Shown piece after piece: positions 5,964-60,248 of a stretch of DNA of 64,000 nucleotides (positions within the stretch are counted from its first letter, which is position 1; the number at the start of each line of letters is the position of its first letter). Under the pieces are notes generated by a model, which saw only the letters and a list, made by a program, of their open reading frames with translations, did no database searches and was not told the origin of the DNA. The position numbers and the translations under genes were made by a program. Location: assembly GCF_003473485.1 (NCBI RefSeq), contig NC_053049.1, positions 12,276,001 to 12,340,000 on the forward strand, written 5' to 3'. The stretch is from Medicago truncatula (lineage: Eukaryota > Streptophyta > Magnoliopsida > Fabales > Fabaceae).

Positions 5964-6489
5964 TTCTTTATAATGAAGCATGTAATTGGCAGCTTCAAAA
6001 ATCATATACATACTACACATAAGTAAACAAAAAGTAACCTAGAAAGTTCAATTGGTTGTGTCATTTTCTGAATTGGTGATGACTATTTTTTCACTATTAC
6101 TAACTTGACCAAACCCTTTCATCAAAGTATTATATTTCACAATATTAGGAGCCACGTTAGCCAACTTCAATAATTCCCCATCATCAATATTAGGAGCCAC
6201 ACAAGATTTCTTGTGGTTAACCAGAAATCAGATTATTTTTTTGGTCAAAAAAAAAAAACGAAATCAGATTATTAAAAGAAACAACATTTGGACACAAACT
6301 AATTGGGGTAGGAGAGAAAAAAGAAAGCGATGTTTTGTGCTATGGTAAACTACAAATAAATTTATTTTCCCTGGGCCTCGTCCTCTCAAAAACAATACTG
6401 ATTTATTCACCTATATATTTCATCACCTGAAATCCCCTAGGGTTACGCGCAACAGAGTCAAGAACATGGCAGAGAAGAAATACAATCGC

Positions 6490-7598
6490 ATGGTGAAGAT
6501 GAAAGAGACGTTGTATATTCCTTATGAATTAATCATTCAAATCCTGCTGAGGTTGCCGGTGAAGTCTCTTTTATGTTTCAAATGTGTTTGTAAGTCATGG
6601 TTTTCTCTTATCTCTGATCCTCACTTTGCAAATTCGCATGTTGATGTTTCCTCCGCAAGAATTGTGTTAATTTCAAGAACTCCACCTACTGTTGGGATTC
6701 GTTCTATAGATTTTGAAACATCCATTAACCATGATTCCTTTTCACTGGACCATAATTTTCTGCTTCACAGAGGTTACTATTTCCATGAAATTAAAGGTTC
6801 ATGCAGAGGGTTTATATTCTTGCACTGTTGGACAAATATCTACGTATGGAATCCATCCTCTAGGTTTCACAAAAAAATACCTTTGTCTCCTTTTGATTTG
6901 AAGTTACATGCATACCATCGACATCATCTATATGGTTTTGGTTATGACCGGTCAAGAGATGATTACTTGGTGGTTTTATTGTCCCTTTGTCCAGCCTTGG
7001 TGAAAACTTCATCAAAGTTGGAATTTTTCTCATTGAGAGATAACAAGTGGAATGAAATTGAAGGTCCTCACATCACTTCTTTTAATACCAGGGATCATCC
7101 CAAACCTTCCAAAGCAGGATTATTCTTTAATGGGGTGTTATTCATTGGTTAACTTCTCATTATCATCATGGTTTACCATTGGAAGTTATTGTTGCCTTTG
7201 ATTTAATGGAAAGGAAATTGGTAGAGATACTTCTTCCAGATGATTTCAACCATGGTCTTATGTATTATGGTTTGTGGGTATTTGGAGAATTTCTTAGTCT
7301 ATGGAATATGAATTTTGATAATCAGACGCTTGAAATATGGGCGATGAAAATATACAAACTGCGTTCGTCTTGGACCAAGACTCTTGTAATTCCTATTGGC
7401 AATGACATGCATTGCTTTTCCCCTATATACTCTACAAAAAGTGGTGATATTATTGGAACTGATAGTGGTCATGGATTGGTGAAGTATAATAATAAAGGAC
7501 AGCTGTTAGAGTATCTCAAAATGAATCCAAATGCATCTGAAGTGGCGATGTATACAGAGTCTCTGCTTTCACTCCCTGGTGATCGTGAGCAGGTTTAA
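6490..7598 (+). pseudogene. F-box/FBA gene copy 2, frameshifted
   Basis: This is a tandem copy of the gene at 1486-2577, clearly alignable over its whole length. The F-box (LIIQILLRLPVKSLLCFKCVCKSW) is open from the ATG at 6490; an upstream in-frame ATG at 6466 also exists. Around 7133-7138 a net gain of two bases relative to copy 1 shifts the frame, and a stop follows at 7150. The C-terminal FBA half continues in another frame from about 7160 to 7598. The predicted product would be about 220 aa, with F-box and the first part of FBA only. A short F-box protein could still be made, but disruption of a formerly full gene is the simplest reading. A sequencing error is not excluded from this window alone. 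Confidence 0.8.
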
Positions 7599-25023: not shown

Positions 25024-27448
25024 GGTAAAGATGTTTCTATGTTTTTTTAATCGACTGTTTAATAATGTAATAACTCTCATTTCCCGTTTATTAGACAAGG
25101 AAAAGATATTGTCCTTAGGTTGGTTGAAAGCTAGAAAAGCTATCTTTATTTTTGGTACTCAGCAGTGGTGGTCATGCCCTTTTCTTTGTCTGGGTATTGG
25201 CTAACGTAGTCTTTTTTTTTTTTTTAAACTAATGCAAAAGCATCAAACCAAGTCAGGTGAAGCCAATGCAAGACCAATATTAACAAGGCTGTCCGGACAA
25301 GCATTGCCCTCTCTATATATATGAGACACCACAAATCTCATCTGTCTGATTCTAACTAAGCAATTGAGCCACCTATTTCTTAAAACCCAAGGAACCAAGG
25401 AAATAGATTTGAAAGCCAAAATAACCAATTGTGAGTCTGTCTCCAACCAAAAATTCCAGAAACCATTAATGTGAGCAATCTCAATGGCAGTCATAGCAGC
25501 TACCAGTTCAGCAAATAGAGCATCATGCTCCCCCAGATATTTAGTGAAACAACCAATACATATGCTATCAGAGTTTCTGAAGATGCCTCCTACAGCTGCT
25601 CTATTAGGGTTCTTTGTAGTTTCACCATCAGTGTTGGCTTTAATCCAAGATGACAAGGGAGGTGTCCAAATTACTTCTTTGATGATGGGAGCCCTCGGGG
25701 GTTTGATGTTAACTTTAAAAGTTTTGAGTATCCTGAATTCCTGCATATCCCCTCTATATACTTCATCAGTAAGATTACCTGTTATGGCAGTTTGAGCAAT
25801 AATAATATTAAGAGCAGGTTTCCAGTGCATCTGTGTGTCTTTAAATCTCACTTGGTTTCTTCTAAGCCATATAGTGTAAAGAATATTGAACATGCAGGCT
25901 TTCGGGACGGTCCTGCACTGCGGATACCAGTTTCTCTCCAAAAGATTCAAAAAGTCAAGACACGTGATAAATTGCATGTTTATATTTAAAATAGAGAACA
26001 ACCAGTTCCACAAATGCATAGCAAAAGGACATTCAAAAAATAAGTGGAAGGTAGTTTCACCCTGAAGGGAACAAGATGAGCATAAAGATGGAAACTGAAA
26101 CCCTCTGGATGTAAGGTTTTCATTCGTTGGAACCTTATTATGCATGATCCGCCAAACCAAAAGGGATTTGGTTGGAGGAATATCGGAACACCACAACTCT
26201 TTGGCCCATTTTATCTTCTGACCAACCCCATATTTGAACTCATAAGCTTGTTTGAAAGATAAATCACCATTATTGCTAGGATGCCAGATTATCTTGTCTT
26301 CAGTGGCTTCAAAATGAATTGTTATTTGTTCAGCAAGAAATTTGACCTGAGGGAAATAGATGAGAACAGAAAAAGGGACATTCCACTGACCATTGAGAAT
26401 GAAGTCTTTGACTTTAGCAGTTAAGTTTCCATGCAGATGTGGAGGAATATTTAGCTGAGAGGCTATGGAGACACCACACCAATTGTCAAGCCAGAAATTT
26501 ATGTCGTTACCATTACCAAGTTGCCAACCGCAATTAGATTGGACATTTGAAAACTCATTCTTGATGCTGCTCCAAATAGATGAGAAAATGTGGTGAGATA
26601 TCACTCTTCTGCCTCTAATAACCTTACTTCTGAGTAAAAGAGCCCAATCTTCCTTAGAGTTCAATAGATCCCAACACAACTTCAGATTAGTTGATTCATT
26701 AAGAATGGAGAGAGACCTGATGCCTAAGCCACCTTCTGAGAGAGGCTTGCAAGATTTTTTCCAAGAAACAGTCACTAATTTTCTTTTAGAGACATCACCA
26801 CTCCATATGAAATTCCTTGTCCAGAGTTCAATGTCATTAAGAAGCTTCTTGGGCCAAGAGTAAATGGATATTGAGTGAACCAACATACTTTGAATAACGC
26901 TTTGAACCATAATAACTCTACCAGCAATACTTAATAGAGAGGCTTTCCAAGATGCTAGTTTGGATTTGATTTTGTCTGCAATAGACTGTAGGTGGCATCT
27001 TTTAGGTTTCCCCTTGAAAATTGGAACCCCTAGATAATTGAACGGAAGAGAGCCCTTGCTGAACCCAATTAGATCAACGATTTGATTAATTCTAGAATAG
27101 AAATTGATCCATAGAACACAATAGATTTTGAAGGGTTAATCATTTGACCAGAAGCTTGAGCATATGAGTTGAAAAGTTGCATAAGAGCATGAATAGAGGA
27201 GATTTTACCTTTGCAAAATATCATAATGTCGTCAGCATATAAGGAATGAGAAGGAACATGTGTTGATCTTTTTGATAAGCTCCAACTTTCCCTGTTGCAC
27301 AAGATTGGTGATACTTCTTGATTGAACCTTTGGGAAGGTTTGTAATTGTTGTAACTCTTGATTCCTGTGGTAGTCTCTAAGGCACACCTTGTGCTCTAGG
27401 GATTGTTTTGTTATATATTTCATTTTTACTTTTTCAAAAAAAAAAAAA
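25024..27448 (+). mobile_element. 5'-truncated LINE, plus strand, 15-bp target duplication
   Basis: A perfect 15-bp direct repeat GAATTTAATTGAGAA (25009-25023 and 27449-27463) brackets the insertion, with a poly(A) tail at 27436-27448. Its own sequence is only the C-terminal end of ORF2 (RLFNN, LSLGWLKARKA, FIFGTQQWWSCP, stop at 25202-25204) and a 3' UTR. The rest of the UTR (AAGGCACACCTTGTGCTCT, then TATATATTTCATTTTTAC) resumes after about 27330. The gap is filled by a second LINE on the minus strand. Confidence 0.85.
25209..27330 (-). mobile_element. 5'-truncated LINE, minus strand, nested in the plus-strand LINE
   Basis: A poly(T) run at 25211-25224 marks the 3' end. Reading the minus strand, the reverse transcriptase C-terminal half comes first, with the catalytic LYADDIMIF (YADD at 27228-27239). 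A 555-codon frame (26910-25243) then covers the RT thumb (ELWTRNFIWSGD), the zinc-binding linker (LWCSDIPPTKSLLVWRIMHNKVPTNENL) and an RNase H domain (ANTDGE, FAELVAAM, LETDSQL, YREGNACPDSL). The frame shifts at least twice between 27330 and 26910. The N-terminal endonuclease and most of RT are missing. Both minus-strand size and the nesting show it is younger than its host LINE. Its own target duplication was not resolved. Confidence 0.9.
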
Positions 27449-33339: not shown

Positions 33340-33665
33340 TTGAGTAATGTTTTACCGTTCAATATATTTTTACAGTGTACATAATTTACAAAACTCACAG
33401 CTGGGTAGAAAGTTTACATCATATAGATTATTTCTATAAAATTTCACATAAATATTAAATATTTTATATGTCGTTGATGAGATGCATAAAGATCACGTCT
33501 ACGTGGTTTTATTAAATCTTTATGCATCTCCAATACATATTAAATAATTTTGTATTTATATAAATTTTACAGAGATGTTTATATGATATAAACTTTCAAT
33601 CCAACTCAAAAATTTATAAAATATGTATTTGAAAAAATTTATTGAGCGACGTAACATTATCAGTG
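33340..33665. mobile_element. Long foldback MITE at the left edge of the C2 array
   Basis: The two halves pair around a centre near 33505. The left half runs GAAAGTTTACATCATATA...GAGATGCATAAAGAT; the right half inverted reads GAAAGTTTATATCATATA...GAGATGCATAAAGAT. A partial copy of the same element lies at 46255-46370. Non-coding. Confidence 0.65.
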
Positions 33666-35890: not shown

Positions 35891-36430
35891 ATGTCGCAAA
35901 CAATAGAGATAACAATTTTGTCAGCGGAGAATCTCCAAGAAAACAAAAAAGCCATAAAAGGAAACACATTTGTCACGGTTCAATGTGACGGAAGCAATAA
36001 TGAAGTGAGCACCACGAAACTTGATTCTGAAGGCGGAAGTTATCCTACATGGAACGAGAAGGTAGTGATCGACTTGCCATTACATGCAAGGTTCGTTACA
36101 ATAGAGGTGAAGTACAAAACTAGAGGAAGTAGTAGTAATAGTGTTGGAATAGCTAGAGTACCTGTTTCCGATTTTCTTGGAGGGTATGTACATGAAAATC
36201 AACTGCAATTTTTAAGTTATAGGTTGTGGGATAATAGAGTTATGAGAAATGGGGTTGTAAATATTTCAGTGAAGGTAAAAATGTCCCAACAAAATTCTTG
36301 CTCGAGTTCGATGTCATCGACGATGAATGGAGTTCCAGTAACTGGCGTTCCGGTGGCCGGTAATGGCTCCTGCAGCAGAGTTGCAACAGGGATTCCTGCT
36401 GTTTGGTTAAATTACCAAAGACACATTTGA
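35891..36430 (+). CDS. BAP2-like: C2-domain protein, BON1-associated (BAP1/BAP2)-like, copy 1
   Basis: Intronless, 179 aa, start ATG in AAAATGTCGCAAACA. One C2 domain fills about residues 4-130 (IEITILSAENLQ, KGNTFVTVQCDG, TTKLDSEGGSYPTWNEKVV, ARFVTIEVKYKTRG, GIARVPVSDFLGGYVHENQ, LQFLSYRLWDNRVMRNGVVN). The tail holds GVPVTGVPVAGNGSC and ends ATGIPAVWLNYQRHI. The order RxxVTIEV-GIARVPVSDFxGG-FLSYRLxD-RNGxxN matches Arabidopsis BAP1/BAP2, small phospholipid-binding C2 proteins that interact with the copine BON1 and hold back defence and cell death. First of four tandem genes on this strand; nearest in promoter to copy 2. Cold- or stress-related SRC2-like proteins are a wider alternative label. 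Confidence 0.9.
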   Translation: MSQTIEITILSAENLQENKKAIKGNTFVTVQCDGSNNEVSTTKLDSEGGSYPTWNEKVVIDLPLHARFVTIEVKYKTRGSSSNSVGIARVPVSDFLGGYVHENQLQFLSYRLWDNRVMRNGVVNISVKVKMSQQNSCSSSMSSTMNGVPVTGVPVAGNGSCSRVATGIPAVWLNYQRHI

Positions 36431-40299: not shown

Positions 40300-40930
40300 T
40301 ACCGAAATTGTTGTTCACACATGTGTTTAAGCTGAAACACACTAATAAAAGACCGAAATACCCCTTCGACAGTTAACTGCCGCGGAACTCCAAATCTAAA
40401 ATTATAGAGGATGCAGATCTGAAACAATAAATGAAATTCGTCTCAGTATTCTCTCCTGCAAGAAAAGACAATAAGATCCAACAAAAACATGATCATGGAG
40501 TGTGGGCATGTAACCACTAACTTGGAAAAAGAAAGTTCAAACCAGAAAGACATGACTATCTAGCTTTTAATAGTAATATATAAAACCTTCTGATGATGAT
40601 CATATTGCAGAATAATCTCACTCTATATTTTCATAGTAATGCTGAAATAATCTCAGTCTACATTATTAATTTATAAGTGCATATACAAATTCAAACTTTT
40701 GATGTGGTGCTGAGTCTGTACTCTTACTACAGAACAAAACATTGACATTCAGGGGAAGAAGATAGCAGAAAAACACCAGTATTGCTCCGCAGCAGTTAGC
40801 TGCTGAAGTTTCTGTGGTAGTTAACTGCCAAAGGGGTATTTCAGTATTTTATTGGTGTGTATAAGCTTAAACACATGTGTGAACATCAATTTTCAAGATG
40901 TGCAAGGACCATATTTGAGTATTGAGTTTT
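40300..40930. mobile_element. Second foldback element with GCAGTTAACTGC-type palindromes
   Basis: The left arm GTTCACACATGTGTTTAAGC..GAAATACCCCTT and the inverted right arm GTTCACACATGTGTTTAAGC..GAAATACCCCTT pair over about 70 bases. Next to the arms lie GACAGTTAACTGCC (40369), GCAGTTAGCTGC (40793) and GTAGTTAACTGCC (40816). The right end holds TTTGAGTATTGAG, as in the element at 13279-13980. It has inserted in the promoter side of BAP2-like copy 2, because block A lacks it. Confidence 0.65.
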
Positions 40931-41939: not shown

Positions 41940-42476
41940 ATGTCGCAAACAATAGAGATAACAATTTTGTCAGCGGAGAATCTTCAAGAGAACAAAAAAG
42001 CCATAAAAGGAAACACATTTGTCATGGTTCAATGTGACGGAAGCAATAATGAAGTGAGCACCACGAAACTTGATTCTGAAGGCGGAAGTTATCCTACATG
42101 GAACGAGAAGGTAGTGATCGACGTGCCATTACATGCAAGGTTCGTAACAATAGAGGTGAAGTACAAAACAAGAGGAAGTAGTAATAGTGTTGGAATAGCT
42201 AGAGTACCTGTTTCCGATTTTGTTGGAGGGTATGTACATGAAAATCAATTGCAATTTTTAAGTTATAGGTTGTGGGATAATAGAGTTATGAGAAATGGGG
42301 TTGTAAATATTTCAGTGAAGGTAAAAATGTCCCAACAAAATTCTTGCTCGAGTTCGATGTCATCGACGATGAATGGAGTTCCAGTAACTGGCGTTCCGGT
42401 GGCCGGTAATGGCTCCTGCAGCAGAGTTGCAACAGGGATTCCTGCTGTTTGGTTAAACTACCAAAGACACATTTGA
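41940..42476 (+). CDS. BAP2-like: C2-domain protein, BAP1/BAP2-like, copy 2
   Basis: Intronless, 178 aa. It differs from copy 1 by a handful of residues: TFVMVQ for TFVTVQ, IDVPLH for IDLPLH, DFVGG for DFLGG, and one serine fewer in the GSSSNS loop. C2 landmarks (AENLQENKKAIKGN, GGSYPTWNEKVV, EVKYKTRG, FLSYRLWDNRV) and the GVPVTGVPVAGNGSC tail are intact. Its 5' region matches copy 1, but three later insertions (palindromic foldback element, Mutator MITE, foldback MITE) lie 0.4-1.6 kb upstream. Its coding region and about 230 bases of 3' flank are nearly identical to copy 3. Role as for copy 1: probable membrane-associated negative regulator of defence, by family. Confidence 0.9.
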   Translation: MSQTIEITILSAENLQENKKAIKGNTFVMVQCDGSNNEVSTTKLDSEGGSYPTWNEKVVIDVPLHARFVTIEVKYKTRGSSNSVGIARVPVSDFVGGYVHENQLQFLSYRLWDNRVMRNGVVNISVKVKMSQQNSCSSSMSSTMNGVPVTGVPVAGNGSCSRVATGIPAVWLNYQRHI

Positions 42477-42779
42477 AAGGGTACTTTGTAATCATCATGT
42501 ATATTAAAAACAGAAAGCATACATTTCCATATTGACAATACACGTGGGAATTATTTATGTCTCAATTTGTATATTTATTTCAATGTTCTTTAATATTACA
42601 TCAATCAGTATTGCAATTTAAACATGATCAAACTCAACACTAAATATTAAGGTAAGAGATAAAATATGTATCAAAGGATGAATCGTTCAAGACAACCCAA
42701 ATTTAGAATTTAATAAGTAAATATTTGTAATAACAATTACTCCATATATTAACATTTGTTATTAAAAAAAGAGATTGAT

Positions 42780-43160
42780 ATTGATACGTAAATATGTCAG
42801 TGCACATCAGATACATATGTTCTATACGAGTGTTGACTTGACTTAAATCCTATATGTTGACCAATTTTAGAAATTGCTCCTATAGAAATTTAGTATTTTT
42901 TTTTTCTCTTGACGCATCCCTGATTGTCTCTTAAGAATGGGTCAACCATTAAGTTTCCCAGGAACAAGGGGAGCTGACTTAGTTTAGAAATTAGAAAGTA
43001 CCAACTCTCATTGTAAAATGAAAGAATCAAACAAATAAAACAACAGATTGGAACTTTAAGCAACAACACAAGGGAACTTCTTGATTTTTATAACAAAAAT
43101 CATCCAAAGTTGATCAAAGTATAACAAATTGTATTTAAAACGACAACCGGTAGTAATTAA
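42780..43160 (+). repeat. Array upstream block C (short)
   Basis: Contains only the right part of the block (TTGACTTGACTTA.AT, TCTCTTGACG, GGGTCAACCATT, ATCATCCAAAGTTGATCAAA). It continues into a stretch to about 43380 that matches only block D (TAGTAATTAATTGTAA, AATGACCAATGTTAATA). It therefore pairs with D. Confidence 0.7.
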
Positions 43161-43424
43161 TTGTAACTTTAAGTTTGAATTTAGAATTTCTTAAATATTT
43201 ATGCATAAATTTCATCAATTTTTGTTGTATTTTAAAAATGACCAATGTTAATATATAGTTAGTCGTCATAATCCACTTGAAGTGTGCTTTTCATCAAGGT
43301 CGTGATTATCTTTGGTACTAATTTGGGTGAGTTAGTTTAACTTCTTTAAAAAAAAAAAATAGTTAGTCATCATTAAAAAGTTAGTCATCGCTTTAAAAAA
43401 AATAGTTAGTCGTCATTTTTATTA

Positions 43425-44465
43425 TATTTTTTATCGCCAAACCAGGAGAAATGACATGCATCAAAAGAAAACATCGATATCCCAATTAGGTTGGCACCCC
43501 GATAAACCCCATCCTCTACCGCAAAATTCAAAATATTATTAAAAAAGGGGGAAAAAATTTACAAGAGGGGAGACTATACCAAAACCCTTAAAAAAAACAA
43601 AAACAGAAAAAAAACAACCGTCTAGAGAAACCTATAACGAGGCATACCACAACAGTCTGAATAAAAATTCGCTTGCAAGTCAGGAGGTAGAACCGACAAC
43701 TACACTGCCCCATGAGTCGAGTGACCCATATTAGCCAACTTATCAGCACAACAATTACCTCTCTCATTAGTACAAATTCGTGACTCCAATACCATGTCAA
43801 TACCAAGAAGGGACATATACAAAATTGACCATAGGTTCAGCAAAAAAAATGAGAACAAGCTTATGAGAAAAAAGAAAAAGAAAAATTAAGGCAAATTTTG
43901 TGCCCGAGTTACCGAAGCCGCGAACATTTCAATACAAAACAATCATTGATCAGTTAGAGAGGTATCACCCCTAGAACGGGTTTTGTATGGCTTACCAATA
44001 GTAGTTTTCTTCAGATGATCATGCTTCTGTTTCTTACTTAGAACTGGAATAAATGGCAATTCAACTGACTTTTGATCATATTCACGAATACGGCGCCATA
44101 ACTTCATGTCTAGCTGAATTCTCGGATTACTCTGAATGGCTTCATGTGTTGTCTGCGCCAAACTATCTGGGGCCGCATCTTGCACCAAAGACTCAATCTG
44201 AGACTTCTCCTCAGTAACTGTTGCGAAAACCGAAGCCCTGAGAGGGCCAGTTGGGGAACCAAAATGCACGTCATGGTGCTCTACAACACGATGATCTGTA
44301 TGAACCGGTGGCACCTCCATACCTACCGGAAGAAACCAATTCAACAAACCTCTCTAGCACATCATCGTGCGCTACAGGGGATGAACGTGTCGCAGTCGCA
44401 TCCAAAACCTTGGGACTCTTCACCAGCTTCCGTGGTTGCAAATGCTCCTCTTCACTTTTCATACA
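43425..44465 (-). mobile_element. LINE with large internal deletion, minus strand
   Basis: Reading the minus strand from 44465, two overlapping frames give the hydrophilic end of ORF1 (..LPFIPVLSKKQKHDHLKK.., KPYKTRSRGD). About 50 bases on come the first residues of an ORF2 endonuclease (MIVLY then NVRGFGNSGTKFAL; a stop lies inside). After about 43870 the sequence jumps to the extreme end of RNase H (REGNCCADKLANMGHS, then a short tail and an A-rich end near 43425). About 3 kb or more of endonuclease, RT and linker is absent. Lies upstream of BAP2-like copy 3. Confidence 0.7.
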
Positions 44466-44923
44466 TACTTTTATTTTGACAAGTAATTATATTTTTTAAT
44501 ATAGTTACACATAATAAAAAACACAGTATTTTTCTTTATTCTTAACCTAATAATGAAATACCAATAAATGTTTAGACGAGTTACACTGGTTTCTTCTAAC
44601 TTAACCAAGGTCCTGAGTTTGAAAACCAAGGTCATAAGTTCGAATACAATATTGAACATGAGTTAACACTAAAATTCTTTAGGAGAGTTTGCCGCCTATT
44701 TAAATCTCATAAAACTTGACTAATTAATTTTCGTAGTTACACGCCTACCCGATTTCAAAACAAAAAAAAAAAAGAAACTAATAATAAAAAGTTCCTACTA
44801 ATTTCCACCGTCAAATATAACGGCCACATTTTTTTAACGCTCTCATTCAACTTGAATTGTCACCTTTATTTATTTTTTTTAAGAAAGAAGAATGTTACCC
44901 TTTATTTTATTTTTCGTTCAAAC

Positions 44924-45094
44924 CACGCGCCGTATTTCTAACAGCTCAAATCTAAACCTTTTTTTTTTCTTTTGTTTTTGTCTGCTAAATTTCGGTTCAA
45001 AAAAACAAAAAAGCCCCCAACTATTGAAAAGAAACAACCACCCTCTTTCTATCTCCTTTCTTTCATGTTTCTCAAAACTCCACATATATATAAA
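44924..45094 (+). promoter_or_regulatory. CGCG element and TATA box of BAP2-like copy 3
   Basis: CACGCGCCG at 44924-44932 and CATATATATAAAC at 45083-45095. The leader, with TTTCAATTCCTCAAATATTT, is shared with copy 4 and differs from copies 1/2. Confidence 0.45.
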
Positions 45095-45424
45095 CACCAT
45101 CCTCCCCTTCTCTTCAATTCAACCTTTCAATTCCTCAAATATTTCTATATCCATTATTTCATCCTATTTCTAATCCTTCACACTTTTCTTTTCCACAATA
45201 AAATTTAGGTGACCCTCATCATCAATTTTTTGTTCACATATTGAAAAATAAAATTATTTTGAGAGATTAGTCTCTAATTGTTGGCCGAATACGTGAAGTC
45301 ACCCTAAAGATTTACTTATTACTTGTGAAACAATAAACTATAGCATTTCATTTTTCACATACTTTGAGTTTAAAGGAATTATTCTCTAGCTTCCGATTGA
45401 GATATCTTGAAACACTTACATAAA

Positions 45425-45964
45425 ATGTCACGAACAATAGAGATAACAATTTTGTCAGCGGAGAATCTTCAAGAGAACAAAAAAGCCATAAAAGGAAACA
45501 CATTTGTCACGGTTCAATGTGACGGAAGCAATAATGAAGTGAGCACCACGAAACTTGATTCTGAAGGCGGAAGTTATCCTACATGGAACGAGAAGGTAGT
45601 GATCGACGTGCCATTACATGCAAGGTTCGTTACAATAGAGGTGAAGTACAAAACTAGAGGAAGTAGTAGTAATAGTGTTGGAATGGCTAGAATACCGGTT
45701 TCCGATTTTGTTGGAGGGTATGTACATGAAAATCAATTGCAATTTTTAAGTTATAGGTTGTGGGATAATAGAGTTATGAGAAATGGGGTTGTAAATATTT
45801 CTGTGAAGGTAAAAATGTCCCAACAAAATTCTTGCTCGAGTTCGATGTCATCGACGATGAATGGAGTTCCAGTAACTGGCGTTCCGGTGGCCGGTAATGG
45901 CTCCTGCAGCAGAGTTGCAACAGGGATTCCTGCTGTTTGGTTAAACTACCAAAGACACATTTGA
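45425..45964 (+). CDS. BAP2-like: C2-domain protein, BAP1/BAP2-like, copy 3 (mosaic)
   Basis: Intronless, 179 aa; the true start is the ATG at 45425 (MSRTIEITIL), not an upstream in-frame TTG. The product is like copies 1 and 2 over most of its length. It shares with copy 4 the third residue (MSRT against MSQT) and the GMARIPVSDF patch (GIARVPVSDF in copies 1/2). The promoter and leader are of copy-4 type, whereas the coding body and about 230 bases of 3' flank follow copy 2. This pattern suggests gene conversion between tandem copies. Domain layout and probable role are as for copy 1. Confidence 0.9.
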   Translation: MSRTIEITILSAENLQENKKAIKGNTFVTVQCDGSNNEVSTTKLDSEGGSYPTWNEKVVIDVPLHARFVTIEVKYKTRGSSSNSVGMARIPVSDFVGGYVHENQLQFLSYRLWDNRVMRNGVVNISVKVKMSQQNSCSSSMSSTMNGVPVTGVPVAGNGSCSRVATGIPAVWLNYQRHI

Positions 45965-46254
45965 AAGGGTACTTTGTAATCATCATGTATATTAAAAACA
46001 GAAAGCATACATTTCCATATTGACAATACACGTGGGAATTATTTATGTCTCAATTTGTATATTTATTTCAATGTTCTTTTAATATTACGTCAATCAGTAT
46101 TGCAATTTAAACATGATCAAAATCAACACTAAATATTAAGGTAAGAGATAAAATATGTATCAAAGGATGAATCGTTGAAGACAATCCGAATTTTAGACCT
46201 CTTAATATGTAAAAATTAATTTGAATCTTAACTACTCATATATTCATATAGATC

Positions 46255-46370
46255 ATTTCTAAGATTTTACGTAAATATGAAATTATTTGATATGATATTT
46301 TATGAGATGCATAAATAATTTTCTATTTATATAAAATTTTATAGAGATGTCTATATGATATAAAACTTGA
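46255..46370. mobile_element. Partial copy of the 33340-33665 foldback MITE
   Basis: Contains GAGATGCATAAATAATTTTC, TATATAAAATTTTATAGAGA and TGTCTATATGATATAAA, in the order seen in the right half of the element at 33340. Confidence 0.5.
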
Positions 46371-46659: not shown

Positions 46660-47636
46660 ATTTTCTAAACAACATGTATAGATAGGTTAGATAAAAGCTC
46701 ATGAAATTCTGGCATGCTAGCTTCCTGATGTTGTATGTAATGTTCCAATATTGAGACACAGTTGGAATGTTGAGTATAATGTTTCAACGTCAGACTAAAG
46801 ATAAACAAACAGAACAAGGAAAATATAAATGACAGAAACGTAAATGGCACAGGTTATTTGTTAACCCAGTTCGGTGACAAACACACCTACTCCGGAGGCT
46901 ACCAAACCAGGAAGGAAATCCGCTAGTGTAGTCCGACCTAGTTCTAAGTTCTCAGCAAACTCCAAGTTTACAACTTATCACCTAGCTACTACTCGTACTG
47001 ACTTCAGCCTAGGAACTCCTAGACCTGAGATCTCATCTCACTTCCACTCAATCACACACCCTGTGATTTCACGTTTACAATCAATATAATGAAGATACCT
47101 TCAGACACAAACTAACTCCGTACTTCAAAGCTTAGGAGTAGTGTACAATCTTACAACTCAATAAACACAGTCCTAAACTTGCATCAAGGTGACACAATAA
47201 AGGTTCACAATTAACAGAGACTCAAAACCCTAAAAACTCTATTTTTAATATGACGACTTCAATTATGAATTATGTTTTAAATTTGTGTCTTTCCTTATAT
47301 AATCTGAAGCAGTACGGGCTTGATATTCTTATTGGACTTCACAAAAAATGTCGATCCATGAATAGATCCGCTCACAAGAAACAGAACCAAATCACCAGTT
47401 TCCTAAAATGTTGGAACATCTTTAGGAGATAAACACAAGTCTGATTCTGGTAAAAAAAAAAAAACGCGTCTTCAGCAAGTAAAAAGGCGTAGATTCCTCA
47501 AATAATTAAAGTCTGTTAATTATGGCACGAAATCAGAGCACATTGAAGTCGTACCCACATGTTGAAACATTAGGTCCAACATCTTACTTGTATATTTGAT
47601 TTAGCAAAAATGATGCCAACATACAAATATCCAACA
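46660..47636 (-). mobile_element. LTR-retrotransposon LTR relic
   Basis: On the minus strand it begins TGTTGGATATTTGTATGTTG at 47636. The block includes a TTAACCCAGTTCGGTGACAA-type stretch with ACACACCTACTCCGGAGGCT, which I associate with LTRs of Medicago copia-like elements. No interior domains flank it, so it is best read as a solo or partial LTR. The right end abuts upstream block D precisely; the left end is approximate. Fossil. Confidence 0.5.
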
Positions 47637-47639
47637 ACC

Positions 47640-48850
47640 CACAACTTTTGATATGTGTTCTTTAAACTTCTTTTGATTGATTATTAATCTAGCCTCCCTT
47701 ATTATTTTTTATTTTTTTTTGACAAATAGCCTCCCTTATTCGACAACTTTATCTTTCATATACACATTGTTCTTCTACATTATCTCTCTATTGCTTTGAT
47801 TTTTATGTCACTATCTAAATTTCTTTGTATAATGTGGTTGTCCAACAAATTATCACATAAAAAAGTTGTTCAAATAACATTGCTCTTGACAAAATTATAA
47901 TGACACCATGGTTTTGTCGAAGCTTTAAAAATCACCGTGACACACATCATGCTTATGCAAAACTCATCGCCAATACATCTACATTTTTTATGTCAAATTT
48001 CGGTCCCATTTGCAACACCTATTGTTATTATTTGAATCAACACGAGTTAGTATTTATTTAATTATTATAATATAGTATTCCATCATTAGTTGTATCCAAT
48101 TGTATGATTGTTTTACAATAATCCATGACCTGCCTCCTTACCTACTAGACCCAATTTATTTATTGTACTATGAATGCAACAATGGAAGGAAACATCCTTG
48201 AAGTATGCACACCATTATTTTTTTAAACCAAATATTATTTTCTACCTAAAGCCTCCAAACTCATTTAATAATTAACATATTAATATTTGTCATTAAAAAA
48301 AATATAAATATTGATATGTTAATATCATAAGAACAATTTTTTTGGTTACAATCTATAAGAACAATTAATCTACTAACATTTATCATTAAAAAAAACCATA
48401 GATATTGATACGCACACATCCATAATATTTTAAAAGAATAAAAGTGATTGAATGTAACATTATGGATATTGATACGCATTTATCAGTAACATTGTGTTGT
48501 AATCTCTTATTAATATATTTCTTGAAAAGACCACATATGTTGGAGGAATATCAGATACATGTTCTATATAAAATGTCTGTGGACATAAAATATTTATGAG
48601 TGTTGACTTGACTTATATGCTATTTGTTGTCCAATTTTAGAAATGGTTCCCATAAAATATTTGTAGTATTTTTCTCTTGACGAATACTTGATTGTCTGTT
48701 AAGAAGGGGTCAACCATTGTGTTTCCAAGGAACAAGGGGACTTCTTGATTTTTATTACAAAAATCATCCAAAATTGATCAAAGTTTATAATATATTAGTG
48801 CGAATGCAAATCAAAAGGGAAATTCTTATTCAACAGTATTGGATTTAATA
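47640..48850 (+). repeat. Array upstream block D
   Basis: Matches blocks A and B (CTTCTTTTGATTGA.TATTAATCTAG, ATTTGCAACACCTATTGTTA, CCCAATTTATTTATTGTACTA, GGGGTCAACCATTGTGTTTC) with extra AT-rich runs (48290-48420). It is closest to block C where both exist. It precedes BAP2-like copy 4. Confidence 0.8.
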
Positions 48851-51311: not shown

Positions 51312-51542
51312 TAATTATATTTTTTAATATGCGTAGAAATAGAAAGTTACGTATAATAAAAAACTGAGAGAGTATTTTTGTTTATTCTTAAACTAATAAT
51401 GAAATAAAGAATAAATTCAAATCTTTAGCTGTACTAAAACAGAAAGTTCCTACTAAGTTCCACCGTCAAGTATAACGGCCACATTTTTTAACGCTCTCAT
51501 TCAACTTGAATTGTCACACTTTTTTCTTTTTTTGGTTCATAC

Positions 51543-51639
51543 CACGCGCCGTATTCTTCAACGACTAAAATTTAAAAAAGAAGCAACCACTCTCTTTCTC
51601 TCTCCTTTCTTTCATGTTTCTCAAAACTCCACATATAAA
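51543..51639 (+). promoter_or_regulatory. CGCG element and TATA box of BAP2-like copy 4
   Basis: CACGCGCCG at 51543-51551 and CATATAAACACC at 51632-51643, with the same leader style as copy 3. Confidence 0.45.
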
Positions 51640-51965
51640 CACCATCCTCCCCTTCTCTTCAATTCAACCTTTCAATCCCTCAAATATTTCTATATCCATT
51701 ATTTCATCCTATTTCTAATCCTTCAAACTTTTCTTTTCCACAATAAAATTTAGGTGACCCGCATCATCAATTTTTCTCACATATTAATTAGTTAAATTAA
51801 AAAAAATATTTTTAGAGATTAGTCTCTAATCTTCGCCCAAATACGTGAAATCATCCAAAATATTGACTTATTACTTTTGAAACAATATAACCAGAGTATT
51901 TCATTTGACGTATACTTTGAGTTCATAGGAATTAGTCTCGAAATATCTTGAAACACTTACATAAA

Positions 51966-52505
51966 ATGTCACGAACAATAGAGATAACAATTTTGTCAGC
52001 AGAGAATCTTCAAGAGAACAAAAAAGCCATAAAAGGGAACACATTCGTTACGGTTCAATGTGACGGAAGCAACAGGGAAGTGAGCACCACGAAACTTGAT
52101 TCCGAAGGAGGAAGTTACCCTACATGGAACGAGAAGTTGGTAATGGATGTGCCATTACATGCAAGGTTCCTAACAATAGAGGTGAAGTACAAAACAAGAG
52201 GTAGTAGTAGCAATAGTGTTGGAATGGCTAGAATACCTGTTTCCGATTTTCTTGGAGGGTATGTGCATGAAAATCAATTGCAATTTTTAAGTTATAGGTT
52301 GTGGGATAATAGAGTTAGGAGAAATGGGGTTGTAAATATTTCAGTAAAGGTAAAAATGTCCCAACAAAATTCTTGCTCGAGTTCGATGTCGTCGACAGTG
52401 AGTGGAGTTCCGGTAACCGGGGTTCCGGTGACCGGTAATGGCTCATGCAGCGGAGTTGTAACAGGAATTCCAGCTGTTTGGTTAAACTACCAAAGAAACA
52501 TATGA
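51966..52505 (+). CDS. BAP2-like: C2-domain protein, BAP1/BAP2-like, copy 4
   Basis: Intronless, 179 aa, start at 51966 (MSRTIEITIL). The most diverged of the four: GSNREVSTTK, EKLVMDVPLH, RFLTIEV, NRVRRNGVVN, a STVSGVPVTGVPVTGNGSCSGVVTG tail and the end NYQRNI. The 3' flank is also different from copies 1-3, while promoter and leader match copy 3. C2 core motifs are all present and the frame is clean, with changes spread as in a gene under constraint. It may be the copy least touched by gene conversion. Probable role as for copy 1. Confidence 0.9.
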   Translation: MSRTIEITILSAENLQENKKAIKGNTFVTVQCDGSNREVSTTKLDSEGGSYPTWNEKLVMDVPLHARFLTIEVKYKTRGSSSNSVGMARIPVSDFLGGYVHENQLQFLSYRLWDNRVRRNGVVNISVKVKMSQQNSCSSSMSSTVSGVPVTGVPVTGNGSCSGVVTGIPAVWLNYQRNI

Positions 52506-56571: not shown

Positions 56572-57127
56572 GAATAACATATCTTGTAAAAAATTTGTTC
56601 CAAAGGAAAAATGAGCAAATTAATGAATATTGCACAAACTCGGATATTATAAATGAATCACTTTTATTGTATTTTTGAAAAACTTTGTTATAAAGAAGAA
56701 ATGAGCAAATTAAGGGAAATATCTGCATTTTTCTTAAGAAAATGTTGTCGTTCATAAACGTGAAAATCAAGCAAGCATATTGCACAAATCTCAACTATAT
56801 GTACATTTCTAAAACATTTACCAAAGCATTATAAAGATTTGATGTAGGAAAAGAGCATGTTCTATTTTGTTCAAGAGATTAGGAAAACAACTTTATAATT
56901 AACATGATACTAATTGAAACCAACGAAGGAACCAACAATGTGCATATTAACGTTACATAATAGTTAGGTTTATAAAAGAGACTACAAGTGTCATAGACTA
57001 ACAAAAAAGGGATTTTTGCCAATATTTACATCAGATAAAATGAAAAGAACAAATGGCATCCCAAAGACAAGATAGTTTACGATTACAGTCCAAAACGGTA
57101 TGCCAAAATAGTAGAAGTTCAAATAGT

Positions 57128-57385
57128 TCAGCAGCAAAGATCTATTTTAACTCGAACGTGCATGTTCTTCAGTGACTTTTCGAGATCAAAGATGAGCTTA
57201 CCACCTTCTTCCATGACACGTTCTCTGCAGAAATTGAACCACTGCCCATCCAAGTATTTTTCATAGCATGCTCTTTCGGCGGTAATGAGGCGACACTTAT
57301 ACTTTCTCTGTGTCTGGTCATCAATGAGAATGTTTGTTTTGCGCTTTTCTTTCAGAATTGTTCTTGACACCTTTTTTGGGAAATG
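57128..57385 (-). pseudogene. B3 DNA-binding domain fragment captured by the Helitron, copy 1
   Basis: An open minus-strand stretch of about 85 codons with no ATG at its start. The sequence FPKKVSRTILKEKRK, ILIDDQTQRKYKCRLI, KYLDGQWFNFCRERVMEEGG, KLIFDLEKSL and MHVRVKIDLCC follows the B3 fold in order (PKKF-, L.D, W..F....L.EGD-.F.L, -.V.I); the usual GD is GG. An AG acceptor-like site (TATTGCAG) lies about 40 bases upstream, so this is probably a captured terminal exon of a B3 transcription-factor gene. Isolated in a transposon, it is unlikely to make a functional factor by itself. Confidence 0.7.
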
Positions 57386-58169
57386 CTAAACAGGGAAATA
57401 ACTGCAATATTAGTCTAATGCATATTAACATGGATAAGATGTATGGGAATGTAGTTACATATAATTTATAAAATGAAGGTAGCATGACAAATTTTAAGCT
57501 AAAGAAACCTGATCAATTTTTGTATCATCAAATCAACCTGATCATAAATCAAATATGAAAACTGTTACAACTTTATGATTACTCAGAAAACCTAAAATAA
57601 CTCACATGCATCAATTTTTTTCAACTATAGTACGAGAAGCTAAAATAACAATTGTGTCAAAATCTTACCATGAGCTAAAATTCAATCATCATGACCTCTA
57701 CTATACTCCACATAACAAAGGAAGATTTTTCTACAACCATGCAACATAAAAATTTCTGGTACATAATCCACTAACAATTGGAAAAAAAAAAAAAAAAAAA
57801 ACTCTTAAAATGTAGAATCGTGAAAAAAGGAAGAAAATCACCTATGATGAAGCAAAAACTCAAACAGTGTCAAAAAATGAACCCCTCAAGCCATAAAAAT
57901 CAGTCAACTCAAGTCATGCATGGTCTCAGAACCATGAAAAAAGGAAGACAATGACCTCTTAAGAAGAAGAAAGTGTAACAGTTTTCCCATCCGAACTCTG
58001 ATACCGTTTGACCAATGGTTTTTACGGTCTAAATGTTATTTCAAAACAAAGTTAAAATAAAGGCCTTTAAGAAAGAATCTAAAGTTGTTTGGTTTCTTTG
58101 TTTTCTTAATTTTAAAGCTATTTTTAAGTTAAATGTTGTTTGCAAAAATATTGTACAAACTTTGAATTT

Positions 58170-58255
58170 TTTTTTATGGTGTCCGGGGTTCAAACCCCGG
58201 GCCTGACATATATTTGTGCATTGTTCCTATCAACTGAGTAAAGCTCACGAGGACA
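58170..58255 (-). mobile_element. Short tRNA-like SINE in unit 1
   Basis: A 13-bp duplication AAACTTTGAATTT flanks it (58157-58169, 58256-58268). On the minus strand GTGAGCTTTACTCAGTTG and GGGGTTTGAACCCC are box A and box B; the end is GACACCAT plus an A-run. Confidence 0.85.
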
Positions 58256-58617
58256 AAACTTTGAATTTATTATGAATTAACATAATAAATAATAAAATGT
58301 TTAAAATATTTTCTGAAGGCTAAATATGTTAAAAAATATAAGATATTTTTTGACAAATACTATATTTACTCAATAACGTTTATTTTGTGTAACATGATAC
58401 TAATTGAAACCAACGAAGGAACCAACAATGTGCATATTAACGTTACATAATAGTTAGGTTTATAAAAGAGACTACAAGTGTCATAGACTAACAAAAAAGG
58501 GATTTTTGCCAATATTTACATCAGATAAAATGAAAAGAACAAATGGCATCCCAAAGACAAGATAGTTTACGATTACAGTCCAAAACGGTATGCCAAAATA
58601 GTAGAAGTTCAAATAGT

Positions 58618-58875
58618 TCAGCAGCAAAGATCTATTTTAACTCGAACGTGCAAGTTCTTCAGTGACTTTTCGAGATCAAAGATGAGTTTACCACCTTCTT
58701 CCATGACACGTTCTCTGCAGAAATTGAACCACTGCCCATCCAAGTATTTTTCATAGCATGCTCTTTCGGCGGTAATGAGGCGACACTTATATTTTCTCTG
58801 TGTCTGGTCATCAATGAGAATGTTTGTTTTGCGCTTTTCTTTCAAAATTGTTCTTGACACCTTTTTTGGGAAATG
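58618..58875 (-). pseudogene. B3 DNA-binding domain fragment, copy 2
   Basis: Same as copy 1, with one visible residue change (KNLHVRV for KNMHVRV). The frame is still open in both units. Confidence 0.7.
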
Positions 58876-59659
58876 CTAAACAGGGAAATAACTGCAATAT
58901 TAGTCTAATGCATATTAACATGGATAAGATGTATGGGAATATAGTTACATATAATTTATAAAATGAAGGTAGCATGACAAATTTTAAGCTAAAGAAACCT
59001 GATCAATTTTTGTATCATCAAATCAACCTGATCATAAATCAAATATGAAAACTGTTACAACTTTATGATTACTCAGAAAACCTAAAATAACTCACATGCA
59101 TCAATTTTTTTCAACTATAGTACGAGAAGCTAAAATAACAATTGTGTCAAAATCTTACCATGAGCTAAAATTCAATCATCATGACCTCTACTATACTCCA
59201 CATAACAAAGGAAGATTTTTCTACAACCATGCAACATAAAAATTTCTGGTACATAATCCACTAACAATTGGAAAAAAAAAAAAAAAAAAAACTCTTAAAA
59301 TGTAGAATCGTGAAAAAAGGAAGAAAATCACCTATGATGAAGCAAAAACTCAAACAGTGTCAAAAAATGAACCCCTCAAGCCATAAAAATCAGTCAGCTC
59401 AAGTCATGCATGGTCTCAGAACCATGAAAAAAGGAAGAAAATGACCTCTTAAAAAGAAGAAAGTGTAACAGTTTTCCCATCCGAACTCTGATATCGTTTG
59501 ACCAATGGTTTTTACGGTCTAAATGTTATTTCAAAACAAAGTTAAAATAAAGGCCTTTAAGAAAGAATCTAAAGTTGTTTGGTTTCTTTGTTTTCTTAAT
59601 TTTAAAGCTATTTTTAAGTTAAATGTTGTTTGCAAAAATATTGTACAAACTTTGAATTT

Positions 59660-59745
59660 TTTTTTATGGTGTCCGGGGTTCAAACCCCGGACCTGACATA
59701 TATTTGTGCATTGTTCCTATCAACTGAGTTAAGCTCACGAGGACA
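59660..59745 (-). mobile_element. Short tRNA-like SINE in unit 2
   Basis: Copy of the SINE at 58170 carried along by the tandem duplication. Here the box A region reads GTGAGCTTAACTCAGTTG, the less mutated form. Confidence 0.85.
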
Positions 59746-60248
59746 AAACTTTGAATTTATTATGAATTAACATAATAAATAATAAAATGTTTAAAATATT
59801 TTCTGAAGGCTAAATATGTTAAAAAATAAAAGATATTTTTTGACAAATACTATATTTACTCAATAACGTTTATTTTGTGTAACATGAATACAAATTTGTA
59901 TTATCATATAAATGACTTGTTAAATATTTGAATAGGAGAAACAATTTAAGAAGCCTGAAATAATAACATAAATAATATCAAAAGAGTTAGTTTTTTCTAT
60001 TTCAATTATACTCTATAACAAATTTCGTTATAAGAATACCATATTTTTTGTGTCTTTCAAAAATATAAGAATTTATATTATATGATATTATATTTGTTAC
60101 ATTGTTTGTGTCATGGAAACAAATTGTTTAGTTTTTTTAATAAGAAAAAGATATGCATAGTTTGTTATAATATAAAGGTGCAATATATATGTGTGAGTTT
60201 TATAATGGCTTTGCCATTTCGTCTATCTACCCAAAAAAAAAAAAGGTG

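Follow-up and report, generated by a model that had tools for sequence, protein, structure and literature searches.

Leader and body of different descent in copy 3 of a tandem C2-domain gene array of Medicago truncatula

Copy 3 of a tandem array of C2-domain genes in Medicago truncatula is a mosaic. Upstream of its ATG it goes with copy 4, and from about codon 12 on it goes with copies 1 and 2. Body and leader of this gene have different histories and the changeover is confined to a short interval within the first codons. We hold with good confidence that copy 3 is a recombinant of two lineages in this family, most likely generated by ectopic gene conversion. The conversion itself and its direction we infer from the patterns of similarity.

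The four copies and their relatives

The window, i.e., the whole stretch of DNA analysed (C8:12276001-12340000, 64,000 nucleotides), carries four copies of the gene, designated c1 through c4, all on the + strand (Table 1). All four are intact open reading frames of 178-179 aa which start at the ATGs opening the coding intervals in Table 1. Copy 2 is one codon shorter and is nearest to copy 3 across the 3' half and the 3' flank. A-type denotes the short leader and the kind of body found in c1 and c2, B-type the kind of long leader found in c3 and c4. The C2 domain (PF00168) is recognised in each copy with 48.4-54.8 bits, the curated Pfam cut-off being 22. Each protein has one C2 stretch and is in this respect a small single-C2 protein of the BAP1/BAP2 type. 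Otherwise BAP1/BAP2-type is a candidate name for c1-c4 only. When copy 3 is aligned to 1wfj, the acidic residues in the loops of 1wfj are paired with non-acidic ones. dN/dS is about 0.1-0.2 among c1-c4; therefore, all four copies look constrained.

Table 1. Features of the C2-domain gene array, in positions of the window.
Feature	Position	Strand	Description
Copy 1	35891..36430	+	C2-domain gene encoding 179 aa; short leader and body both A-type; Pfam C2 E 9e-13
Copy 2	41940..42476	+	C2-domain gene, 178 aa, A-type leader and body; Pfam C2 E 1.2e-12
Copy 2, end of homology to copy 3	42707..42728	.	blastn of 42700-42900 against the window
Copy 3, upstream region and long leader	44777..45424	+	B-type (copy-4-like), TATA-like site at -340 from ATG
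Copy 3, coding sequence	45425..45964	+	179 aa, A-type body past the switch; Pfam C2 E 4.4e-14
Copy 3, B-to-A switch interval	45433..45459	+	codons 3-12; maximum chi-square scan
Copy 3, 3' flank	45965..46196	+	near-identical to copy 2 42477-42707; alignment
Copy 4, upstream region and long leader	51433..51965	+	partner of the copy 3 leader; alignments
Copy 4	51966..52505	+	C2-domain gene encoding 179 aa; long leader of B-type, body diverged; Pfam C2 E 1.2e-14

The genome searched comprises 429.9 Mb in 42 contigs. The copy 3 protein has 13 matches in it: the four copies, one on C7 (58%), six further ones on C8 (12.343-12.367 Mb), one on C3 and a weak one on contig C2. The DNA of copy 3 (45425-46217) has five matches, all within the four copies. 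Outside the array the nearest relative is located on C7 (L022:4645-5148); it served as outgroup and is distant (dS 0.95-1.09), which limits polarity and rooting. A second cluster of C2 genes is located at C8:12343284-12367043 (L019-L021). Its members are 35-40% identical to copy 3 and highly alike mutually; one has an internal TGA.

The window holds further features. The segment 38459-38671 is made up of two abutting parts, each 98-99% like a part of the small contig C41, where the two lie far apart; it is putatively organelle DNA that was joined and inserted recently. Upstream of copy 2 (40305-40892), 83-base inverted repeats which are 87% alike surround about 590 bases and appear MITE-like. 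A direct tandem duplication of 1.5 kb, 99.07% identical, is present at 56900-59896. A 393-aa ORF at 1396-2577, which we take to be F-box-like, has a second copy at 6466-7598, about 89% alike and split into two ORFs. The ORF at 25243-26910 with zf-RVT and RVT_3 domains is a retroelement remnant.

Two kinds of sequence in copy 3

The four copies were aligned over 291 ungapped columns of 5' flank, 537 of coding sequence and 225 of 3' flank. In the 5' flank 32 of the 34 two-two sites join c3 with c4 (c1=c2/c3=c4); two are of the pattern c1=c3/c2=c4 and none is c1=c4/c2=c3. This confirms the initial annotation, which had assigned the leader and promoter of copy 3 (44800-45424) to the type of copy 4. 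The match falls short of near identity: copy 3 is 87.1% identical to c4, with large indels, compared with 75.9% to c2 and 73.9% to c1. In the coding sequence 36 sites set c4 alone apart. Two-two sites are few (c1=c2/c3=c4 four, c1=c3/c2=c4 two, c1=c4/c2=c3 one), and copy 3 is 98.3% identical to c2, 97.8% to c1 and 92.4% to c4. In the 3' flank seven two-two sites are c1=c4/c2=c3, two are c1=c2/c3=c4 and none is c1=c3/c2=c4; here copy 3 is 95.6% identical to c2, and over 45968-46183 the difference is down to 1.4%. The earlier proposal that coding sequence and 3' flank are copy-2-like thus stands for the near-identical 3' flank, whereas in the coding sequence the match to c1 is about equally good.

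A maximum chi-square scan of the 194 copy 3 sites which distinguish c2 from c4 places the last c4-type site at 45432 and the first c2-type site at 45460, with a permutation p at the floor of 1/2001. The longest run of c2=c3 extends from 45805 to 46088 over 66 consecutive polymorphic sites (p at the floor of 1/10001). It crosses the stop codon and continues into non-coding sequence, i.e., there is a tract of excess identity with sharp ends which includes the non-coding 3' flank. Because this part of c2 and c3 is non-coding and so little different, purifying selection on the protein is no explanation. Among the six pairs tested, with p uncorrected, the longest c3/c4 run (45063-45131) has a p of 0.0028 and the longest c1/c3 run (45496-45607) one of 0.013; the longest runs of c1/c2 (0.106), c1/c4 (0.44) and c2/c4 (0.85) are not significant.

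Probable conversion and possible crossover

The simplest account of these similarities is that body and 3' flank were exchanged recently. An A-type copy, copy 2 or an ancestor of it, would have replaced these two parts in a B-type unit and spared the leader; the overwritten stretch would start at about codons 3-12 and reach 46183 or further. More than one exchange is likely because c1 shares the homogenised coding sequence, yet not the 3' flank, which is 14-16% different from those of c2 and c3. Ectopic conversion most likely kept the bodies of copies 1, 2, and 3 alike and their leaders not. An unequal crossover perhaps preceded conversion.

Such a crossover might itself have made the junction, a possibility to which we give limited credence. 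A single unequal crossover of A-type with B-type in the first codons would have turned A-a, B-b into A-a, B-a, B-b with a gene added, and the bodies would have been homogenised later. The order of c2 (A-a), c3 (B-a), and c4 (B-b) is the product to be expected. Further, several blocks of the c2-c3 spacer recur in the same order in the c3-c4 spacer (42825-43123/48595-48787, 43129-43382/49069-49317, 44451-44879/51141-51533, and 42728-42795/48277-48412), yet a B-type unit that had been duplicated in tandem would leave similar spacers as well. Trees of the spacer blocks are too noisy to tell crossover from conversion. A crossover alone fails to explain the recent identity: the spacer blocks are 75-93% alike whereas bodies and 3' flanks of c2 and c3 are 1.4-1.7% different. 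It is compatible with later conversion.

Between c2 and c3 homology stops near 42707/46196, as the initial annotation had it. In a blastn search of 42700-42900 within the window, copy 2 beyond 42707 is like 48277-48412 and further on like 48595-48673, as though part of copy 2 had been deleted at this point. In that case 42707/46196 would not have to mark where a conversion tract stops. On the copy 3 side a palindromic element (46239-46362) and a dispersed repeat (46702-47637) are located beyond this end. The palindromic element is 73% self-complementary, MITE-like, and occurs twice in the array, the second time at 33413-33592. The segment 46244-46364, which is like 33419-33592, was considered as an anchor for the copy 3 spacer and dropped; 46239-46362 is an inverted repeat of itself and reads as a mobile element. 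The dispersed repeat between copies 3 and 4, perhaps a solo LTR, has at least 60 matches, 40 of 1870 candidates having been scored.

Topology and branch lengths

The initial annotation had anticipated that the topology would switch along the unit. No such switch is seen. AU tests leave c1c2|c3c4 unrejected in the coding sequence (12|34 0.667, 13|24 0.438, 14|23 0.177) and in the 3' flank (12|34 0.897, 13|24 0.104, 14|23 0.103), and as 12|34 is kept in all partitions the best tree inside the tract does not differ from that outside. This lowers the formal claim of gene conversion, not the claim of different histories. A topology test with four copies is uninformative because the unrooted 12|34 also fits (((c1,c2),c3),c4). 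Rooted with the C7 relative over 163 codons, the best tree is (((c1,c2),c3),c4), and without the first three codons it is (((c1,c3),c2),c4). The tree ((c1,c2),(c3,c4)) has p values of 0.106 with all codons and 0.066 without the first three, i.e., it is not rejected at the 5% level. The rooting thus points to a c1-c3 group, short of this level.

One may then ask whether recombination is required at all. A single history (((c1,c2),c3),c4), in which the leaders of c1 and c2 evolved fast after a deletion, agrees with the best rooted tree of all codons and with 12|34 being unrejected in every partition. In addition, what c3 and c4 have in common in their long leader is probably an ancestral trait, which by itself proves no kinship. 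We nevertheless consider a history free of recombination very improbable. The evidence for recombination sits in branch lengths, not in topology. The comparison omits 44770-44799 and codons 1-3 and uses 265 columns of 5' flank, 175 third codon positions and 212 columns of 3' flank. In the 5' flank the difference is 0.094 for c3-c4 and 0.211 for c2-c3, c1 being just as far from c3 (21.1%). At third positions c3-c4 is 0.171 and c2-c3 0.029, with c1 also at about 3% from c3. In the 3' flank c2-c3 is 0.014 and c3-c4 0.439, where c4 is too diverged for a good comparison. The quantity c3-c4 minus c2-c3 flips its sign between the 5' flank (bootstrap 95% interval -0.170 to -0.064) and the body and 3' flank (third positions +0.091 to +0.200, 3' flank +0.358 to +0.491).

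Proportional branch lengths are rejected for the 5' flank and third positions (2dlnL 48.9, 4 df, p 6e-10), for the 5' flank with the coding sequence (p 2e-11) and with the 3' flank (p 2e-29). Third positions and 3' flank are also not quite proportional to each other (p 0.014). Under HKY with three partitions, unlinked branches gain 155 in twice the log-likelihood over proportional ones for 8 parameters. dS is 0.045 for c2-c3, 0.054 for c1-c2, 0.063 for c1-c3 and 0.288 for c3-c4; therefore, the body of c3 is as far from c4 as A- and B-type leaders are from each other in raw terms (21%).

An assembly error, in which copy 2 and copy 4 would have been joined falsely and which the high likeness of the copies over about 780 bases would favour, is scarcely credible. 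On either side of the switch copy 3 carries substitutions of its own (12 in the 5' flank, two in the coding sequence, one in the 3' flank), the four-way alignment gives it private insertions upstream, its far flanks are unlike those of copies 2 and 4, and the window lies inside a 49.7 Mb contig.

Probable ancestral states in the coding sequence

The C7 relative has the c3/c4 base at 45432 (codon 3), 45685, and 45692 (GMARIP). For this reason the codon-3 (MSR) and GMARIP patches look ancestral and changed in c1 and c2, and we rejected them as conversion patches from c4 to c3. The outgroup turns seeming conversion patches into plain ancestral states. Accordingly, of the repeated gene conversion proposed earlier, recombination between paralogues is well supported, whereas repeated switches within short tracts are less so. 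At 45631 and 45655 the C7 relative has the c2/c4 base, at 45430 a third base and at 45710 a gap. Remaining candidates for small exchanges are the c1=c3 sites 45631 and 45655, which conflict with the c1=c2 sites, and the unpolarised c2=c3 site 45710. At the 36 sites at which c4 alone differs, the C7 relative agrees with c4 in 11 and with c1-c3 in 10, has neither base in 11 and a gap in four. Since it splits so evenly, c4 is not simply a fast copy.

Short and long leaders

The distance from a TATA-like site to the ATG is 155 bases in c1, 141 in c2 and 340 in c3. In c4 the strict TATA pattern is missing; at the aligned place, some 330 bases ahead of its ATG, it has TATAAA. In the 450 bases upstream of copy 3 the sole ATG was found at -360, ahead of the TATA-like site. 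From the end of the shared promoter block to the ATG there are about 282 bases in the C7 relative, 335 in c3 and 136 in c2. On the strength of this spacing in the C7 relative, the long leader of c3 and c4 is probably ancestral, and c1 and c2 would have lost about 190 bases. An inserted repeat as origin of the long leader was rejected: the segment 45136-45345 has two matches in the genome, copy 3 itself and c4, the C7 relative has about 280 bases here, and a loss in c1 and c2 is likelier. The leaders do differ, as the suggestion of two promoter types implied; better described, the leader behind one common TATA region is short in c1/c2 and long in c3/c4, with diverged surroundings. Raw counts of upstream motifs in the copies yielded nothing decisive.

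Discussion

The type of outcome encountered in copy 3 is known from recombination among tandem copies and involves no new mechanism. Concerted evolution of tandem paralogues with unconverted flanks likewise combines a homogenised body, a diverged flank and a sharp switch. There is no categorical difference; in copy 3 the unconverted part is the leader with the upstream region. Chimeric gene duplicates can also originate by unequal crossover, the classic case being CYP11B1/CYP11B2. Such a chimera resembles copy 3 in that the 5' regulatory part of one paralogue is joined to the body of another, in a crossover-like order. It differs in that the proteins of c1-c4 are nearly the same and mainly the leader differs; further, crossover is only a candidate here. 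A review describes gene conversion as ubiquitous and as restricted by non-homologous stretches (PMC3449122).

With respect to the protein, the likeness to the BON1-associated BAP1 and BAP2 consists in a small single-C2-domain protein: VvBAP1 is reported with 176 aa and a conserved C2 domain (PMC6016009), compared with 178-179 aa in c1-c4. Arabidopsis BAP2 is described as a small C2 protein which regulates cell death and the unfolded protein response, with a C2 domain characterised as calcium-dependent (PMC11237027). A literature search retrieved no title on this C2 array, which is no proof that the array is unpublished.

The copy 3 array is a clean small example of separate histories of leader and body in a tandem gene. 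Provided that the proteins are equivalent, a comparison of copy 3 with copies 2 and 4 amounts to a natural promoter/leader swap and could reveal the contribution of the leader. One may go further and propose that conversion keeps one protein uniform and that selection keeps an ancestral long (330-340) and a derived short (141-155) class of leaders apart; we consider this unlikely. An effect of the copy 3 leader on two-way expression or dosage, as envisaged in the initial annotation, is speculation. If the reading of two leaders is true, the array would supply one cell-death regulator at two expression levels or in two different conditions; copy 3 would then be a natural swap which parts leader from protein.
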